A stretch of DNA of 64,000 bases, from positions 186,001 to 250,000 of the forward strand of contig NZ_QVFV01000003.1 of NCBI RefSeq assembly GCF_004212215.1, written 5' to 3'. The position numbers and the translations under genes were made by a program. Source of the stretch: Leptolyngbya iicbica LK (GTDB lineage Bacteria > Cyanobacteriota > Cyanobacteriia > Phormidesmidales > Phormidesmidaceae). Of this stretch, positions 3,156 to 64,000 are shown one piece after another; positions within the stretch are counted from its first letter, which is position 1; every line of letters starts with the position of its first letter. The notes under the pieces were generated by a model. It did no database searches and was not told where the DNA came from. It saw only the letters and a list, made by a program, of their open reading frames with translations.

Positions 3156-4451
3156 CTAACGGGCATCCCACTCAGCCGCCGCATCGGCGACGGCTTCATC
3201 CACGGTTTTTTGGCCCAGCATGGCCGCTTGCAGGTTGGTATAAATGGCCTTTTGCAAGGTTTTGACATCTTCCATCGCGGGGATCAAAACTTCGGCATCG
3301 GCCATCTGTCCGGCACTGACGGAGCGCGCCAGGGTGACCGGTTCGGCATCGGTTGGCGGTTCGGTAAAGTAGCTGTCGGAGAGCGCCTGCGTGGTCGAAG
3401 GCAGTACGTTGGCCGCTTTGGCAAAGGTCAGCTGGTTGGCGTCATTCGTGACGTAGAGGGCGAACTTCAAGGCCGCCTCGGGCGCGTCGGTAGAGCGGGG
3501 AATCACCAAATTCATCACCGCGACATTTTTCTTAGCGGTCTCCCCAGAAATTTGGGGGGCACTGGCGGTCGCGGCGGCGATATCTGGCGCGTTGTTTTCA
3601 ATCGTGCTGAGGAATTCGGCCCCAGACGCGAGGATGGCCGTTTCGCCTGCTTGATACAGTTCCACGGCGCGGCGATGACCTTGAGTCAACACTTCACGAG
3701 GCAAGAGTTCTTGCTGATACAGATCCGTCCAGTATTGAAATACCGCTTTGCCCTCGGGGGTGTTGAAGGCCGCGTTGCCCTGGTCATCCACCAACGGTAC
3801 GCCCATTTGCACAAAGGATTGCAGCACGTCAGCCGCATCTTCGGGCACAAAGGAGATAAAGAAGGCGTACTTGCCGGTGGCGTCTTTGATTTGCTGAGCG
3901 GCGGTGGCCAATTCCTCATAGGTGGTCGGCGGCTCGGTGATGCCCGCTGCTTCAAACAACTCTGTGTTGTATAGGGTGACGCGGGTGGTGAGATACCACG
4001 GCAACCCAAAGCTCTCGCCATTTAGGGTATTGGCTTGCCAAATCTTATCGAGGTACAGCGATTTTTCTGCTGGCGAGATGCGATCGTCCAGCGGCAACCA
4101 CGCCTGTTTGCTCGCGAGTTGCGACGCGAAATCGGGGTTCAAATTCACCACATCAGGGGCGGTCCCGGCGGACACTGCCGTGAGAATTTTGCTTTGCATA
4201 TCGCCCCAGGGCACATCGATCCACCGGACGGTGATGCCGGGGTTCTCCGCTTCAAAGTTGGCAATCAGCTCGTTGAAATAGTCGGTGAAATCGGGCTGCA
4301 ACTGCATGGTCCAAAACTCCACCTCTTGGGAGCCGTCGGCGCTGGACTCGGAGGTGGCTGAGGGATTGCCGCAGCTGATCAGCCAACTCATCAGCACGCC
4401 CAGTAGCATGAGCAGGCCAAAACGTTTCCAGAAACGGGGGAGGGTGGACAT
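3156..4451 (-). CDS. ABC transporter family 1 solute-binding lipoprotein (sugar type)
   Basis: A 431-residue periplasmic binding protein of the MalE/UgpB-like family. It has a basic N-terminus, a hydrophobic signal at about 11-26 and a lipobox LISC with Cys27, so it should be lipid-anchored. The mature part starts with VEFWTMQ and contains family landmarks such as FEAENPGI, GTAPDVV, LPWYL and the TPEGK segment. The ligand is probably a sugar or glycoside. No ABC permease or ATPase gene is next to it in this window, so the membrane partner is encoded elsewhere. purT lies upstream on the same strand after 107 bp. The family call is confident; the ligand is not determinable. Confidence 0.88.
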   Translation of the reverse strand: MSTLPRFWKRFGLLMLLGVLMSWLISCGNPSATSESSADGSQEVEFWTMQLQPDFTDYFNELIANFEAENPGITVRWIDVPWGDMQSKILTAVSAGTAPDVVNLNPDFASQLASKQAWLPLDDRISPAEKSLYLDKIWQANTLNGESFGLPWYLTTRVTLYNTELFEAAGITEPPTTYEELATAAQQIKDATGKYAFFISFVPEDAADVLQSFVQMGVPLVDDQGNAAFNTPEGKAVFQYWTDLYQQELLPREVLTQGHRRAVELYQAGETAILASGAEFLSTIENNAPDIAAATASAPQISGETAKKNVAVMNLVIPRSTDAPEAALKFALYVTNDANQLTFAKAANVLPSTTQALSDSYFTEPPTDAEPVTLARSVSAGQMADAEVLIPAMEDVKTLQKAIYTNLQAAMLGQKTVDEAVADAAAEWDAR

Positions 4452-4558
4452 GGTGGAGTCGGGGAATGGGTGGATGAGAGGGCAGATGCGGTTGAGTGTG
4501 AGGGGCCGAGTGCGGCGATCGCAGTGCTTAACTCTGCACTAACAGGCCACCTAAAAGC

Positions 4559-5770
4559 CTAAAGCAAAACTTGCACTTTGCTGGCGCAGGCGATCGCTCT
4601 TTCCTTGGCCTCCTCGACGGAATCGCCCAGAGCGAGCGCCACGCCCATGCGGCGGTTGAGGTGACAGCGAGGTTTACCAAAGAGGCGGACTTTGCTGGTG
4701 GGCACGCTGAGGGCTTCAGCCACCCCGGCATAGCGAGGCTGATTGCTCGAGCCGGGAGCGAGAATCACCGCCGACGCACCTGGTTGCAATAGTTCAATCT
4801 GGCCGATGGGCAAGCCGGTAATGGCGCGGACATGGAGCTCAAACTCCGACATGTTTTGGCTGACCATCGTCACCATACCCGTGTCGTGGGGGCGCGGACT
4901 GACTTCGCTGAAATACACCATTTGAGGCTGATCGGGCGACCCGGCAATGAACAGTTCCACGCCAAAGAGGCCCCACCCGCCAAGGGCGTCGGTGATTTGG
5001 CCAGCGACCCGCTGACATTCGGCCACGGTGTCGGGATGTAGGCCGCAGGGCTGCCAAGATTCGCGATAGTCGCCGTCTTCTTGGCGGTGCCCAATGGGGG
5101 GACAAAAGAAGGTGCCGTCTTGGGCGCGCACCGTGAGCAGGGTAATTTCGGTTTCAAATTCGATGAAGCCTTCGACGATGACGCGCTGGACTTTGCCGCG
5201 TCCAGCGCTGTAGGCGTAGTCCCAAGCGGCGTCAATGTCTTCGGGCGATCGCACTAAGCTTTGGCCTTTACCGGATGAACTCATGATGGGCTTCACCACG
5301 CAGGGCAACCCAATGGCCTCGACGGCGGCGCGATACTCCGCCAGCGTGCCCGCAAATTGATAGGGGGAGGTGCGCAGTTGGAGTTCCTCGGCGGCGAGGC
5401 GACGAATGCCCTCGCGGTTCATGGTGAGTCGCGTGGCTTTGGCGGTGGGGACGACGGTCCAGCCTTCCGCTTCCAGCGCGACTAGCGTGTCGGTGGCGAT
5501 CGCCTCCACCTCTGGCACGATCAAATCGGGTTTTTCTTGTTCGATCAATTGGCGCACGCGATCGCCATCCAGCATATCGATGACATGAAAACGATGGGCC
5601 ATCTGCATCGCTGGCGCATGGGCATAGGCGTCTGCCGCGATGACTTCCCAGCCCAGGCGCATCGCTTCGAGGGCGACCTCGCGCCCTAACTCCCCAGACC
5701 CCAGCAGTAGCAAGCGTTTTGCCCCTGCCAAGGTAGGCGTTCCCCAAGTTGTACCCGCTTCTTGTGCCAC
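4559..5770 (-). CDS. purT: Formate-dependent phosphoribosylglycinamide formyltransferase
   Basis: PurT converts glycinamide ribonucleotide to formyl-GAR using formate and ATP in purine biosynthesis, a folate-independent alternative to PurN. The 403-residue ATP-grasp protein has the N-terminal GSGELGREV nucleotide-fold motif (about 26-34), [16 protein letters not shown], the ATP-grasp loop [16 protein letters not shown]-like region (here [10 protein letters not shown]) and [14 protein letters not shown] with the metal-binding acidic residues. Length matches the family. The start is GTG at 5770; no earlier start is usable. It is divergent from pilM across 585 bp. Identification is very secure. 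Confidence 0.96.
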
Positions 5771-54831: not shown

Positions 54832-55863
54832 ATGGATTCCAAAATCCCCTTCCTATCTGACACCCTAGATCGCCACCAGTCCTGGACGCACCTCCAAACC
54901 ATCATCCCTAACTTGCGGCGAGTCACCGCCGCCATGCTGATCCGTCATAAGCCCGGACGCCGTGCCCTGATCGAGTACCAGCTCGAAACCTCAGACGGCC
55001 CTCTCAGCATCCTGGGGAAAATTCGTGCTAAAGGCACCGACTGGCACAGCTACAACATCCAACAAGCCCTCTGGAATGCCGGCTGGGCAGCAGACAGTCT
55101 CGATCGCTGCTCCGTCCCCGAACCCCTCGGCGTCATCCCCGACTGGCACATGGGGCTTCAACGTCGCGTTCCCGGTGTACCCGTAACGGAAATTCTGCCC
55201 ACCGCTGCCGGGATTCCCCTCGCCCGCCGCATCGCCGCCCTGGCCCGCAAACTCCATCACACCCCCATCCCCACCCCCAAAAACCACACCCTCACAGACG
55301 AACTCCGCATCCTCCACGATCGCCTGCCCCTCGTCGCCGACCAACATCCCCAACTGCGATCGCGCCTCACCACCCTCCTCCAAACCTGCGACACTCTCGC
55401 TGCCCCCCTGCTCCCCCGCCCCCCTGCTCCCTCACCCACCCACCTCACCCACCCACCCACCTCCCCATCCCCCCATTCCCCCGCTCTGATCCACCGCGAC
55501 TTCTACCCCGACCAGATTCTTGTCGACCGAGATCGCCTCTGGCTCGTCGACCTCGACCTTTGCTGTCAGGGAGATCCCGCCCTCGACATCGGCAACTTCA
55601 TCGCCCACCTCACCGAGCAAAGTCTGCGAGAAACTGGGGATCCGGCGACCATGAGTGCCCAGGAAACGGCCTTTCGGGATGCCTATATACAAGCGGCAGA
55701 AGGGTTCCATGAAAACCACCTGCGGCGGGCGATCGCCCATTACACTCTATTGAGCCTGGTGCGGCACATTCACATCAGCACCCGCATTCCGTCCCGCCGT
55801 CATTTAACGGCAGCAATGCTGACCCTCTGCGAAACTCGACTCCAGCCATTGCGAGAACCTTGA
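54832..55863 (+). CDS. Aminoglycoside-phosphotransferase (APH)-fold kinase
   Basis: A 343-residue kinase-like protein. The N-lobe has RHKPGRRALIEYQLE and ILGKIRAKG (Lys for ATP). The catalytic loop is LIHRDFYPDQILVDRDRLWLVDLDL with the HxD pattern and DLD in place of DFG, then GDPALDIGNFIAH. The protein may phosphorylate a small alcohol or sugar rather than an antibiotic; context suggests a role with the glycan pathway (inference). Directly before the HRD motif is a ~27-residue Pro/Ser/Thr/His insert made of a pyrimidine tract, which is unusual. It starts 14 bp after the ABC gene stop. Confidence 0.85.
   Translation: MDSKIPFLSDTLDRHQSWTHLQTIIPNLRRVTAAMLIRHKPGRRALIEYQLETSDGPLSILGKIRAKGTDWHSYNIQQALWNAGWAADSLDRCSVPEPLGVIPDWHMGLQRRVPGVPVTEILPTAAGIPLARRIAALARKLHHTPIPTPKNHTLTDELRILHDRLPLVADQHPQLRSRLTTLLQTCDTLAAPLLPRPPAPSPTHLTHPPTSPSPHSPALIHRDFYPDQILVDRDRLWLVDLDLCCQGDPALDIGNFIAHLTEQSLRETGDPATMSAQETAFRDAYIQAAEGFHENHLRRAIAHYTLLSLVRHIHISTRIPSRRHLTAAMLTLCETRLQPLREP
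55402..55486. repeat. Pyrimidine-rich low-complexity tract inside APH gene
   Basis: About 85 bp of C-rich, almost pure pyrimidine/A sequence with repeats of CCCACC. The minus strand therefore holds many G-runs and could form G-quadruplexes. It encodes the Pro-rich insert before the catalytic loop. A related tract lies at 50347-50380. Confidence 0.8.
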
Positions 55864-57374
55864 GAGAGACCGCATCGCAAATCGCTAAAGCTTTTAATAT
55901 CTATTGTTGCGAAGTTCTGTGGTTGAAATCTTTGGCATATAACTGGCAATTTCTCGGCGTGGCGCGTACCCGCATTTTGATTTGGTCTCTAGCCCTGATG
56001 ACGCTGTCCAGTGTGACTTCGGTGCTAGTGATTCGGCAGGTTTTGTTTGCCAAGCTTGAAGATCGCATTCAACAATCCATGCAGCTCGAAATCGAGGAGT
56101 TTCATCAACTTCGGGCAGGCAATAATCCCCAAACTGGGCAACCCTTTCAAGATGACGTAGAAGCGATTGTTGATGTTTTTTTATCGCGCAATATTCCGGA
56201 AGATGACGAATATTTAATTGCGATTGTGGATGGCGAATTTTACCGGGCGAGTTCCTTGGCGCTGCCGCCGGCGCTTCAGCCCGATGGGGCTTTGATGCAA
56301 CGTTGGGCGAGGCTGAGCCAGCCCCGACAGGGCATTGCTGTGACCTCTGAGGGCAACATTCTGTACCAGGCTGAGCCGATCCGCCCCAATTCAGAGTTGT
56401 CGTCTAGTGTGGAGACGGCGCGGGGGGAAGATATCTTCGTGGTGGCCTATCTAACAACGGGCGAACGGGACGAGGTGAACGAAGCGGTGCAAACGGTGAC
56501 GCAGGTGTCGTTGAGCGTGCTGGCGATCGCTTCCCTCTTAGCCTGGCTGGCGGCAGGTAAAGTCCTTGCCCCTCTGCGATTACTGAGCCAAACCGCTCGT
56601 TCCATCAGTGATGCCAACCTGACTGAGCGGATTCCTGTCCGGGGGAGCGGCGACATTGCGGAACTGGCCATCACCTTCAATGACATGATGGATCGTCTCG
56701 AGGCCACCTTTAACAGCCAGCGGCAGTTGCTCAACGATGTGGGACACGAACTGCGCACACCGATGACGATTATTCGCGGTCACTTAGAGCTCATCGGTTC
56801 CACCTCTGATGAGCAGCAGGAAACTCTGGATATTGTGCTGGATGAGCTCGATCGCATGAGCCGCTTTATCAACGAACTGATGCTGCTGGCCAAGGCGGAA
56901 CGTCCGGACTTTTTGACCCCTGCCACCATTGATCTGACGCTGTTTACCGAAGAACTGTTGACCAAAATCACCACTTTGGGCGATCGCCACTGGCGGCTAG
57001 ACGCGCTGGGAACGGGGCAGTTTGTGGGCGATCGTCAACGCCTGACGGAGGCGATTGTCAATCTGGCACAAAACGCGATTCACCATACCGACCCCAGCGA
57101 TACGATTATGCTTGGATCCGCATTGCGCCAGGGGCGGATTTATCTTTGGGTCAAAGATACGGGCGAAGGCATCGACCCCGCCGACCAGCAACGGATTTTT
57201 GAGCGCTTTGTGCGGGGGCATAGCCGTCACCCTCATCCCGAAGGTACCGGCCTCGGCCTTGCGATCGTGCAGGCCATTGCCATTGCCCACAATGGCGACG
57301 TCACGCTCACCAGTCATCCTGGTCAGGGCGCGACCTTTACCCTGGTGTTACCTTACCTGCCACCTCCGGACTAG
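55860..57374 (+). CDS. Membrane sensor histidine kinase (HAMP-HisKA-HATPase)
   Basis: A 504-residue classical kinase. Transmembrane helices lie at about 38-60 and 217-238, enclosing a ~155-residue extracytoplasmic sensor of unknown type, followed by HAMP (about 240-290), HisKA with the phosphoacceptor in DVGHELRTPMTII (about 300), and HATPase with NLAQNAIHHT, DTGEGI and GTGLGLAIVQAI. The start is the TTG at 55860, which overlaps the APH stop; an internal start could shorten it by up to ~22 residues. The response regulator begins 5 bp after the stop, so this pair is a complete two-component system. Confidence 0.92.
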   Translation: MRETASQIAKAFNIYCCEVLWLKSLAYNWQFLGVARTRILIWSLALMTLSSVTSVLVIRQVLFAKLEDRIQQSMQLEIEEFHQLRAGNNPQTGQPFQDDVEAIVDVFLSRNIPEDDEYLIAIVDGEFYRASSLALPPALQPDGALMQRWARLSQPRQGIAVTSEGNILYQAEPIRPNSELSSSVETARGEDIFVVAYLTTGERDEVNEAVQTVTQVSLSVLAIASLLAWLAAGKVLAPLRLLSQTARSISDANLTERIPVRGSGDIAELAITFNDMMDRLEATFNSQRQLLNDVGHELRTPMTIIRGHLELIGSTSDEQQETLDIVLDELDRMSRFINELMLLAKAERPDFLTPATIDLTLFTEELLTKITTLGDRHWRLDALGTGQFVGDRQRLTEAIVNLAQNAIHHTDPSDTIMLGSALRQGRIYLWVKDTGEGIDPADQQRIFERFVRGHSRHPHPEGTGLGLAIVQAIAIAHNGDVTLTSHPGQGATFTLVLPYLPPPD

Positions 57375-57379
57375 CCAGC

Positions 57380-58048
57380 ATGAGTCGCATCTTGATCGTG
57401 GAAGACGAACCCCGCATTGTCTCATTCTTAGCCAAAGGATTGCAGGCCAACGGCTTCACCACGACCCATGCCCCCGATGCCGCTCAAGCGAGGAATTTGG
57501 CCCTGGACGGCGACTTCGACTTGATCATTCTCGACTTGGGCCTGCCCGACCAAGACGGCATGATGTTGCTGAATGAACTGCGTGGCCAAGGCTTTGGCCA
57601 GCCCATCATCATTCTCACCGCCAGAGATGACATCCACGACAAGTTGGATGGCTTTGCCGCCGGAGCGGACGATTACGTCACTAAGCCCTTCCGCTTTGAA
57701 GAACTACTCGCCCGCATCAAGGCTCGTTTGCGCAACGCCCAGCCCCAGACCACACCCAACGACCATCTGCTGACCATTGGGGCGATCGAGCTAGATCAAC
57801 TGACCCACCGTGTCCAGGTATCTGGTCAGATCGTCGAGCTCTCTGCCCGCGAGTTTGCCCTGACCGAAACTTTCATGCGCCATGCCGGTCAGGTCCTCAG
57901 CCGCGAACAGTTGCTCGATCGCGTGTGGGGCTACGATTACGACCCTGGCTCCAACATTGTGGATGTGTATGTCGGCTATTTGCGCAAAAAGCTGGGCGAT
58001 CGCTGCATCGAAACCGTGCGGGGCATGGGCTACCGCATGCTCACCTAG
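57380..58048 (+). CDS. OmpR-family response regulator
   Basis: A 222-residue transcription factor. The receiver domain (about 1-118) has IVEDEPRIV with the acidic pair, DLIILDLGLPDQDG with phosphoacceptor Asp (about 52), LTARD and DDYVTKPF (Lys about 102). A winged helix (about 125-220) has REFALTETFMRHAGQVLSREQLLDRVWG and NIVDVYVGYLRKKLG with RGMGYRM at the end. It is the partner of the kinase 5 bp upstream. Whether it controls the adjacent cassette is not shown by the sequence. Confidence 0.95.
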   Translation: MSRILIVEDEPRIVSFLAKGLQANGFTTTHAPDAAQARNLALDGDFDLIILDLGLPDQDGMMLLNELRGQGFGQPIIILTARDDIHDKLDGFAAGADDYVTKPFRFEELLARIKARLRNAQPQTTPNDHLLTIGAIELDQLTHRVQVSGQIVELSAREFALTETFMRHAGQVLSREQLLDRVWGYDYDPGSNIVDVYVGYLRKKLGDRCIETVRGMGYRMLT

Positions 58049-62051: not shown

Positions 62052-63227
62052 CTATTTTTGGTCCAGCTCACGGGCTTGCTCTAGGGCGGCTTTTTCCCGT
62101 GCGCGCTGCACATAGGGCTGCAACTGTGCTGGCGACAAGCCCGACAACAGACTGAGATTTTCCACAGTCATGCCCCGGGTCAGCATTTCCACACACCAGG
62201 TAGACTTGGCTTGCTCTGGCTGCGACAGGGAAGGGAGGGAGAGATCGTGAACCCAAGCGGCCCATTTTTCGACAATGTCTTCGACTGAGAAGGCAACGGG
62301 TTCTTCGTCAGTCTTAATGAACAGCCATGGGCTTTCATCTTTACGACTTTTGAGCCATTTGGTGAGCGGATTGCTGGTGTAAGAACCATAGCGCTTGCCC
62401 CAAATCCACTGATTGATCGGCACTTGGCGATCGCCGACTTGCAGCGTGTGCTGGGTTTTGGCACTGAGGTGTTGCGATCTCGTCAGCGCCACCACTTCTG
62501 CTGGTTCTAACCCCGCCGCCAAGAGCAAATATGCCAGGGCATAGTCTTGCGCATTGACGGCTTTGGCCTGGGCCAAAATTTGGTGCACCCAGGGGGCGGG
62601 CAAATCTTGCACGGGCGTCGGGGTGAGGGGAGTCGCTCCGTTAGCCTGATTAGCGAAGGTTTCTCCCAGGAGCAACCCGACCAACCCATCGAGAAAATTT
62701 TCGCGGTTGGCCCAGAGACCATGCCCGTCGCTGGTGGATTCGATCACGACATACCCTACCAAGAGCGCGCCAAGGTAGCCCGATAGCTGACCAGCGGCAA
62801 AGTGGCGATTGGGCATGGTGTGCTCTAAATATTGCGCCACATATTGGCTGGCTTCTTGAATGCGCTGGCCAAGGGCCTGCCGATTGTCGTCGGGAAATTG
62901 ACCGGCCTCGCCAATCAGCGATCGCACAAATGCGGGGGCTTGTTCTAACGCTGCCAAGCATTCCCCCGCATAGGTTTTCAGGGTTTGGTGGCGATCGCTG
63001 GTAGCAATGGTTTGCTCCATCAATCCTTCGCCCAAATTACGAAAAGTTGGGGCCGCAGTCAGCACTGCCTGCAACAAGCCATATTTGTTGCCAAAGTTTC
63101 GAAACAGGGTCACTTCATTGACGCCCGCCAGGTCCGCGATTTGACGGGTCGTGGTTTGACTGACCCCCTGCGCCAAAAAGAGTTGCAGAGCGGCTTGAAT
63201 CAGACTTTCGCGAGAGGATTTTGCCAT
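62052..63227 (-). CDS. TetR-family repressor fused to a degenerate tyrosine-recombinase-like domain
   Basis: A 391-residue regulator, twice the usual TetR length. Residues 1-60 are a TetR DNA-binding domain (ALQLFLAQGVSQTTTRQIADLAGVNEVTLFRNFGNK), followed by a helical ligand domain to about 190. From about 205 to 380 the sequence reads like a phage-integrase/XerC catalytic domain: DYALAYLLLAAGLEPAEVVALT, DRQVPINQW, KSTWCVEMLTRGMTVENLSLLSGL and LQPYVQRAR. The catalytic Arg (in GLR) is Glu241 and HxxR is absent, but Tyr372 is present. I judge it non-catalytic. ATG 63227 used. Divergent from the desaturase. Confidence 0.82.
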   Translation of the reverse strand: MAKSSRESLIQAALQLFLAQGVSQTTTRQIADLAGVNEVTLFRNFGNKYGLLQAVLTAAPTFRNLGEGLMEQTIATSDRHQTLKTYAGECLAALEQAPAFVRSLIGEAGQFPDDNRQALGQRIQEASQYVAQYLEHTMPNRHFAAGQLSGYLGALLVGYVVIESTSDGHGLWANRENFLDGLVGLLLGETFANQANGATPLTPTPVQDLPAPWVHQILAQAKAVNAQDYALAYLLLAAGLEPAEVVALTRSQHLSAKTQHTLQVGDRQVPINQWIWGKRYGSYTSNPLTKWLKSRKDESPWLFIKTDEEPVAFSVEDIVEKWAAWVHDLSLPSLSQPEQAKSTWCVEMLTRGMTVENLSLLSGLSPAQLQPYVQRAREKAALEQARELDQK

Positions 63228-63237
63228 ATGACCAGTC

Positions 63238-63254
63238 TGCAAGCTGTGCTTGCA
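63238..63254. promoter_or_regulatory. Operator-like palindrome 1 (TGCAAG-N5-CTTGC)
   Basis: TGCAAGCTGTGCTTGCA, seven-base arms around TGT. It lies 10 bp upstream of the TetR ATG and would cover the ribosome-binding region or the start of the transcript, suggesting autoregulation. Confidence 0.7.
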
Positions 63255-63322
63255 TTCAACCAAATATTAAGACAACATTGAGCCCTTGTCACCCTGCCCA
63301 AAACTCGCTAAGCTGACCCTTG

Positions 63323-63339
63323 TGCAAGTGGCACTTGCT
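63323..63339. promoter_or_regulatory. Operator-like palindrome 2 (TGCAAG-N5-CTTGC)
   Basis: TGCAAGTGGCACTTGCT, inner 15 bp a perfect palindrome. It shares the TGCAAG-N5-CTTGC half-sites with palindrome 1 and lies 51 bp before the desaturase ATG, just upstream of the candidate promoter. Confidence 0.7.
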
Positions 63340-63390: not shown

Positions 63391-64000
63391 ATGAATTCAA
63401 CACGTTTATCGACTCCTCCCCGTGCCCGCAATACTTTGGATTGGGGAGTTGTGTTCTTTTTTGGGGTATGTCACGCGATCGCCCTGATCCTTGCTCCCGT
63501 TTATTTTTCTTGGTCAGCGCTGGGGGTCATGCTGCTGTTGCATTGGCTCTTTGGCAGCATCGGCATTTGTTTGGGCTATCATCGCTTACTGAGTCACCGC
63601 AGTTTTCGGGTGCCCCGCTGGCTGGAATATCTCTTTGCGACGGTGGGCGCCTTAGCGGCACAGGGCGGCCCGATTTTTTGGGTGGGTGGTCATCGCAAGC
63701 ACCACGCTTTTACTGAAGACCCAGAGCAAGATCCCTACTCTGCCAAGCGTGGTTTTTGGTGGAGCCACATGCTGTGGATTCTGCAACCGCAACCGGAGTC
63801 CTTTGAATTTGCTCAGTACTCCAAATTTGCACCAGATTTAGCGAAGCAGTCCTATTACCGCTGGTTAGACCGTTATTTTCTACTTTTGCAAGTTCCACTT
63901 GCGATCGCGCTTTACGCTTTCGGGGGGTGGTCGTTTGTGGTGTACGGCATTTTTGTGCGCTCCGTTTTGCTGTGGCACTCCACCTGGTTTGTGAACTCTG
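63391..64000 (+). CDS. Acyl-lipid fatty-acid desaturase, DesC-like (partial, runs off window)
   Basis: The first 203 codons of a membrane fatty-acid desaturase that probably introduces a double bond at delta-9. Hydrophobic segments at about 22-40, 45-60, 85-100 and 165-190; His boxes HRLLSH (about 69-74) and HRKHH (about 106-110), followed by WHSTWFVNS, which should lead into the third box beyond the window. The start at ATG 63391 is followed by a short basic N-terminus, as in DesC relatives. It is divergent from the TetR-like regulator, and operator-like palindromes lie between. Family call is confident; the regiospecificity is inferred. Confidence 0.92.
   Translation, partial: MNSTRLSTPPRARNTLDWGVVFFFGVCHAIALILAPVYFSWSALGVMLLLHWLFGSIGICLGYHRLLSHRSFRVPRWLEYLFATVGALAAQGGPIFWVGGHRKHHAFTEDPEQDPYSAKRGFWWSHMLWILQPQPESFEFAQYSKFAPDLAKQSYYRWLDRYFLLLQVPLAIALYAFGGWSFVVYGIFVRSVLLWHSTWFVNS

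Follow-up and report, generated by a model that had tools for sequence, protein, structure and literature searches.

The regulator gene and its surroundings

The stretch of DNA analysed, here called the window, covers 64,000 nucleotides of the genome of Leptolyngbya iicbica LK. Close to its end, a regulator gene was found on the minus strand (positions 62052..63227, ATG at 63227 and stop at 62052), which encodes a protein of 391 amino acids. From the ORF, Pfam and structure models, this protein combines a TetR domain with a tyrosine-recombinase fold that appears to be inactive. Divergently oriented on the plus strand lies a gene for a fatty-acid desaturase (63391..64000; Pfam FA_desaturase, E 4.2e-14), which extends past the end of the window and occupies as a whole G000:C3:249391-250233. 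Its product is putatively DesC or a delta-9 desaturase. Further upstream in the window (55860-58048), an adjacent pair of ORFs resembles by eye a sensor histidine kinase and a response regulator.

The first-pass annotation had proposed that residues 1-190 represent a complete TetR protein, and this was borne out. The TetR_N helix-turn-helix (PF00440) was detected in residues 9-55 (63063..63203, minus strand) with an E value of 3.7e-13 and a score of 49.5 bits against a cut-off of 24. When the full model was compared with solved structures using VIA, residues 2-190 were aligned with the all-helical fold of many TetR regulators, the best match being NemR (Z 16.1). The ligand-binding and dimerisation domain corresponds to residues 59-190 approximately (62658..63053, minus strand). 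A poorly conserved linker connects the TetR half with the recombinase-like half (residues about 207-391; 62055..62609, minus strand), in which catalytic residues have been lost. The core-binding N-terminal domain of tyrosine recombinases is absent, and its position is occupied by the TetR domain and the linker. The full-length AlphaFold2 model, obtained with an alignment of 28 sequences, displayed a mean pLDDT of 83.4 and a pTM of 0.49; the two domains appear to be well modelled and the relative placing of the two halves is unsure.

Fold and conservation of the C-terminal half

The C-terminal half had earlier been read as an integrase or XerC-like catalytic domain, and structure prediction followed by a fold search had been proposed as a check. 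Modelled alone with AlphaFold2, the C-terminal domain reached a pLDDT of 90.1 and a pTM of 0.86. Foldseek ranked XerA (5hxy) first with E 2.8e-8, and the 50 matches listed were recombinases or integrases throughout. VIA aligned the C-terminal model with XerA at Z 20.5 (173 residues, 3.6 Å). Using the full model, residues 202-391 were placed on XerA 5hxy at Z 20.1, and the comparison with XerA 4a8e gave Z 18.2, with 1.8 Å over 148 residues and 24% identity. Tyrosine recombinases, with XerA at their head, were thus the top matches in structure. The last 200 residues of the window protein matched the Phage_integrase family with E 0.0023 and 18.2 bits, which is below the curated cut-off of 27.1. 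The same family was matched at E values up to 1 by 19 of 22 homologous C-terminal domains (best value 9.5e-10), and a profile of the C-terminal family retrieved XerA 4a8e among solved structures with E 2.2e-6. In a divergent homolog (L166), a single ORF lies above the Pfam cut-off for both TetR_N and Phage_integrase (27.9 vs 27.1 bits for the latter). Family profile, Pfam and predicted structure all support the earlier reading of this half. The structural matches to XerA, the Phage_integrase profile matches and the case of L166 together demonstrate that the C-terminal half shares common descent with recombinases and is not a chance pattern.

For the protein alignments, L015 was left out due to an in-frame stop, and L023 was not part of alignment A1; alignment A2 consisted of 22 chosen members. 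In L015 (positions 3986-5233 of this locus, from a Pleurocapsa metagenome assembly), the stop falls between the TetR half and the recombinase-like half, and reflects either a pseudogene or an assembly error.

Mean conservation was 0.68 in the C-terminal domain and 0.60 in the TetR ligand domain, compared to 0.80 in the helix-turn-helix. A family-specific insert (residues 272-291), where the aligned XerA shows a nine-residue gap, reached a mean of 0.81. From the comparison of 0.68 with 0.60 and from the insert, the C-terminal half appears to be under selection for something besides catalysis. The insert, which is as conserved as the helix-turn-helix and lies at the XerA gap, would offer a surface for a small-molecule sensor or for the docking of a partner protein. 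Such a role for the C-terminal domain is possible but doubtful, as the desaturase is the only neighbour common to 30 loci within about 4 kb.

Loss of the catalytic residues

Five catalytic residues (R, H, R, H/W and Y) were checked and recounted in 71 full-length homologs. In the window protein, E241 stands at the first catalytic Arg, E338..K341 at the HxxR motif and L364 at the second His/Trp; Y372, which aligns with the nucleophilic Tyr, is the sole one of the five that is left. These observations agree with the first-pass annotation, in which a Glu at the first catalytic Arg, a missing HxxR and a Tyr at the nucleophile had been claimed. Among the homologs, the first-Arg column contains Ser in 44 sequences, Glu in two (window protein included) and Arg in one (L085); 70 of the 71 retain the companion Glu. 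The His of HxxR is present in one homolog (L004) and its Arg in 25 (Gln in 34). They never occur together, so that an intact HxxR was found in none of the 71 sequences. No His was seen in the second His column, where Trp is present in 8/71, and the nucleophile column shows Tyr in 64/71 and Leu in the seven others (L052, L053, L055-L059). Around the approximate place of the catalytic Lys, the hairpin displays an invariant Arg267 and no Lys in columns 265-266.

The proposal that the first Arg is lost in every homolog was rejected, since L085 has it. This fused homolog keeps Arg241, Arg341, Trp364 and Tyr372, the HxxR His being the only one of the five that is gone, and may be the least decayed of the recombinase domains. 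In the divergent lineage L165-L167, the sequence reads 'RHTW' where HxxR would be, apparently a remnant of the recombinase motif.

The retention of Tyr in most members (64/71) and the four residues of L085 could be taken as signs of a recombinase still at work. The number of checked residues kept is one in 46 homologs, two in 23, three in one and four in L085, an intact HxxR exists nowhere, and the window protein retains Tyr alone; a working enzyme is therefore hardly credible. Judged by its residues, the C-terminal half is almost certainly catalytically inactive.

Distribution and linkage to the desaturase gene

Within its own family, a strong match to the regulator was obtained in 55 of 63 genomes, one of them being merely a short fragment at a contig edge. 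In an even sample of 386 genomes from the cyanobacterial phylum, the fusion was identified in 40 genomes belonging to several families, with frames of 399-496 amino acids. Searching the same sample with the TetR half delivered 43 orthologs with E values of 1.2e-29 or better, followed by paralogs at 5.5e-20 or worse. Next to the 40 fused proteins, the orthologs include three unfused ones (L188, L189 and L190, at G073:C1, G237:C1 and G391:C8), with frames of 248-256 amino acids (233-237 from the aligned start). The same desaturase lies alongside and palindromes are present. No trace of a recombinase fold was detected in the 4-4.4 kb of sequence read around these genes. The proposal that the domain is always fused was rejected on the basis of this search. 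The recombinase half is not indispensable, as three orthologs live without it.

A FastTree phylogeny of TetR halves was calculated with 83 sequences, including four paralogs as outgroup, which did not test as monophyletic. The unfused ortholog of G073 nests within a clade whose other 13 members are all fused (14 in total, support 0.96), suggesting that the recombinase domain was lost in this lineage. Those of G237 and G391 branch basally, with weak support (0.70 and 0.57) and a long branch; possibly, they represent the state before fusion.

With the C-terminal profile, weak matches outside the fusion were obtained in seven further genomes of the phylum sample (E 5.2e-8 to 8.2e-4, G240 among them), and G081 showed a second weak match besides its fusion. 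These frames of 238-388 amino acids were taken for ordinary integrases. The profile search found no other match in the genome of L. iicbica itself.

The divergent neighbour of the regulator is a fatty-acid desaturase in the window and in all 29 other loci of the first scan (30/30); no further neighbour is common to these loci within about 4 kb. A divergent fatty-acid desaturase also adjoins the gene in 43/43 genomes of the phylum sample with a fused or unfused ortholog. Every locus in the main locus table shows this neighbour, and for ten fusion genomes of the phylum sample outside this table, the linkage was established by tblastn (six) or by coordinates (four). The search for the fusion and its desaturase linkage in other cyanobacteria, which had been suggested earlier, thus revealed the linkage in every relative examined. 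Regulator and desaturase distances were correlated over 64 loci (r = 0.89, compared to 0.90 for the two halves of the regulator), a correlation which shared genome descent alone would also yield. The genome of L. iicbica contains two further desaturase genes, at G000:C14:12123-12908 (L107) and G000:C1:1475841-1476605 (L108), with 52% and 35% identity, respectively. No operators were found upstream of the unlinked desaturase genes L107, L108 and L130.

Palindromes and predicted promoter in the intergenic region

The region between regulator and desaturase contains two copies of a palindrome with the consensus TGCAAGTnnnACTTGCA. Both were predicted as operators (unstranded features): O2 (TGCAAGCTGTGCTTGCA, 63238..63254) is centred 19 bp upstream of the ATG of the regulator, and O1 (TGCAAGTGGCACTTGCT, 63323..63339) lies just downstream of the predicted -10 box of the desaturase. 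The predicted desaturase promoter, TTGTCA-N17-TAAGCT (63286..63314, plus strand), follows the pattern TTG-N20-TANNNT, which has the spacing of a standard promoter.

Duplicates from one genome were dropped before counting (L030-L035, L037-L042, L045, L048, L049, L051, L060 and L084), which left 72 fused loci. All 72 of them have two sites that match the consensus in 11 or more of 14 bases within 600 bp upstream of the regulator, compared to about 0.02 such sites per 600 bp expected by chance according to our own arithmetic. Where more than two sites were present, the two nearest the regulator were used, and in L073, L078 and L087 sites were taken upstream of the regulator start only. Regulator, desaturase gene and palindromes travel together in many cyanobacteria.

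As a control, 23 desaturase homologs with 61-70% identity were picked among the matches listed for genomes that lack the fusion. In the 20 homologs that have no regulator alongside, no upstream palindromes were found (0/20). The remaining three are the neighbours of the unfused orthologs; G073 shows two sites 47 bp apart, and G237 and G391 show one each. Since the unfused orthologs keep the palindromes and the 20 regulator-free desaturases are without them, this comparison of sequences ties the putative operators to the TetR half of the regulator.

On the desaturase strand, the TTG-N20-TANNNT pattern was recovered in 58/72 loci (shuffles: mean 0.7, maximum 3), and in 54 of the 72 its -35 TTG has a fixed position within O2. 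In 55/72 loci, an extended -10 element (TGnTA) was found at 12-20 bp from the O1 centre (shuffles: mean 3.9, maximum 9). O2 would thus usually cover the -35 box and O1 would be located at the predicted transcription start. The spacing between O1 and O2 is 46-49 bp in 64 loci, 52-53 bp in four, 72 bp in one and 83-85 bp in three. In four loci of the genus of the window, O2 is displaced, giving the spacing of 72-85 bp. A half-site remains at the -35 box in L002 and L003, resembling the remnant of an earlier O2 that was formed anew upstream.

The helical phase between O1 and O2 was considered as a hint of contact and rejected, because the spacings are mutually out of phase. The usual distance of 46-49 bp corresponds to about 4.5 helical turns. 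The distance gives no support to side-by-side contact, and is better explained by promoter geometry. Apart from the promoter boxes, no further conserved DNA element was seen beside the operators.

A possible third site

A possible third operator, O3 (TGCAAGTTCCACTTGCG, 63887..63903, unstranded), is located inside the desaturase ORF. In the 5.7 Mb of the genome, the exact sequence GCAAGTnnnACTTGC occurs only at 63324-63338 and 63888-63902 (window coordinates). O3 is present at the same codons in 12 loci from two genera despite drift in the rest of the gene. These loci were picked after the site had been seen, as the fetched members of the two genera which show O3; L004 is cut short there. Leu 173 is encoded by CTT in 12/12, no other invariant Leu column exceeding 0.58, and Gln 170 by CAA in 12/12. 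Synonymous codon shuffling remade the site in 1.5-19% of trials per locus (mean 7.9%), which weakens O3 since the protein sequence favours such a site. Near the O3 position, 5/20 regulator-free desaturases score 11 (L138, L139, L175, L180) or 12 (L177) of 14, and scans of other groups for an in-gene site placed the top windows elsewhere than O3. As an operator, O3 is suggestive only.

Operator-like sequences were also observed at other places. In L007, L012 and L020, the desaturase ORF contains TGCAAGTGTnCCTAGCA (12/14), at a distance of about 400-435 bp upstream from the start of the regulator. Partial sites (11-12/14) were seen in the regulator ORF at +265 (L062, L065, L067-L069, L080) and at +967 (L016, L022, L023, L025, L028), and these may be forced by the protein sequence.

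A regulon beyond the locus was considered and rejected. The exact sites are confined to the locus, and GCAAGTnnnACTTGC with up to two mismatches gave 211 matches per strand, compared to 212 for the reversed control; 13 places in the genome with one mismatch were listed.

Proposed function

The earlier observation was confirmed and its reading of the fold supported: the window protein is a TetR-type regulator that has acquired a recombinase fold, almost certainly inactive, and is linked to a single desaturase. On the evidence of the operators, it is probably a local repressor of the divergent desaturase, and likely of itself, with the recombinase fold as an accessory. A TetR dimer would bind each of the 17-bp palindromes. 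In most relatives, the protein bound at O2 and O1 would shut the desaturase promoter, as O2 spans the -35 box and O1 is positioned at the predicted start of transcription. Autoregulation is suggested by the position of O2 next to the regulator start codon in the genus of the window, where the protein bound at O2 would also block the gene of the regulator. Activators exist within the TetR family, and the window protein could conceivably activate the desaturase instead; O2 over the predicted -35 box and O1 at the predicted start in most loci is a polymerase-blocking placement, which makes activation improbable and argues for repression.

The pocket of the TetR half probably responds to an acyl compound or to some other cue on the state of the membrane. 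Acyl-CoA sensing FadR proteins are among the TetR structures matching this half. A ligand of the acyl type is an appealing guess, the FadR match being generic, as many other TetR structures score alike.

As orthologs live without it, the recombinase fold is accessory. It could represent a second DNA-binding domain, which, as in MrpR of Bacillus phage SPbeta, would contact promoter DNA or adjacent sequence next to the TetR operator. Repressors with the integrase fold (MrpR/YopR and SroF; 8a0a, 8bj6, 8bpz, 9rgl and 9rd5) are indeed among the VIA matches of the C-terminal half (Z 11.8-13.1), and twelve basic positions are conserved within the domain. According to PMC10516654, MrpR has lost recombination and binds DNA, for which its Y304 is important; here, the Tyr is kept in 64/71. 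Topoisomerases IB reach the same Z values as the phage repressors with the C-terminal model, which points to a shared fold only. The net charge of the domain is -2 in the window protein and +2.2 on average in 71 homologs, compared to +12 for the matching stretch of XerA. The conserved DNA between the sites outside the palindromes resembles -35 and extended -10 elements, and the palindromes are retained by unfused orthologs. A second DNA-binding domain is consequently rather unlikely. The association of the operators with the TetR half weakens it and strengthens the reading as a TetR-based repressor.

Because the basic charge is lost and no further conserved DNA element was seen, the C-terminal fold is more likely to be a protein-protein module than a DNA reader. 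As part of the repressor, the C-terminal folds may connect TetR dimers and thereby keep two operators in proximity; this is put forward as a tentative proposal. In a more extended form, the retired recombinase fold would assemble TetR dimers and synapse the promoter operators, in some lineages together with the site inside the desaturase gene, as a gene-looping device without cutting. Such looping is unlikely, and its probability is lowered by the five regulator-free desaturases that score 11 or 12 of 14 near the O3 place. If true, the recombinase fold would have retained its ancestral ability to draw separate DNA sites to each other.

Comparison with known regulators and recombinases

The first-pass annotation knew of no described regulator with this layout. 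This holds for the fusion: neither a TetR-recombinase fusion nor a TetR regulator beside a desaturase was found in the literature searched, from which subscription papers were mostly absent, and the accessible parts of PMC8987985 and PMC2593844 do not mention a TetR-recombinase fusion. It does not hold for the use of the fold, as integrase-fold repressors without a TetR half have been described (MrpR). In this locus, an ordinary repressor would have acquired a recombinase domain, which has been maintained in several cyanobacterial families. The natural orthologs without the domain allow a comparative test of its role, and the locus provides a candidate regulator of a desaturase, an enzyme type that determines how fluid cyanobacterial membranes are.

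With the TetR/AcrR family, including acyl-CoA sensing FadR, the window protein shares the N-terminal helix-turn-helix and the all-helical second domain, as well as short palindromic operators (predicted here) and a divergent target gene. It differs in its additional stretch of about 190 residues, which carries a recombinase fold. At about 400 residues, the TetR regulator Mce3R is similarly long and is the best single PDB sequence match, with two matched stretches. The second half of Mce3R is another TetR domain.

Among the Xer recombinases, XerA is the closest match to the C-terminal half in both fold and sequence. In contrast to these enzymes, the window protein is devoid of the catalytic Arg and His, of the core-binding domain and of the basic charge, and it has the insert at residues 272-291.

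MrpR/YopR of SPbeta and SroF of phi3T are repressors with a tyrosine-recombinase fold, as found in the C-terminal half of the window protein. The study on MrpR (PMC10516654) describes an integrase-fold repressor which has lost recombination and most catalytic residues, and in which Y304 is important for DNA binding; its authors expected a wider recruitment of recombinases as regulators. In contrast to the window protein, MrpR displays the integrase core-binding N-terminal domain, lacks a TetR half and behaves as a monomer (PMC10516654). While MrpR/YopR and SroF are phage proteins, the window regulator is encoded on the chromosome, where it would be the equivalent of the integrase-fold repressors of phages.
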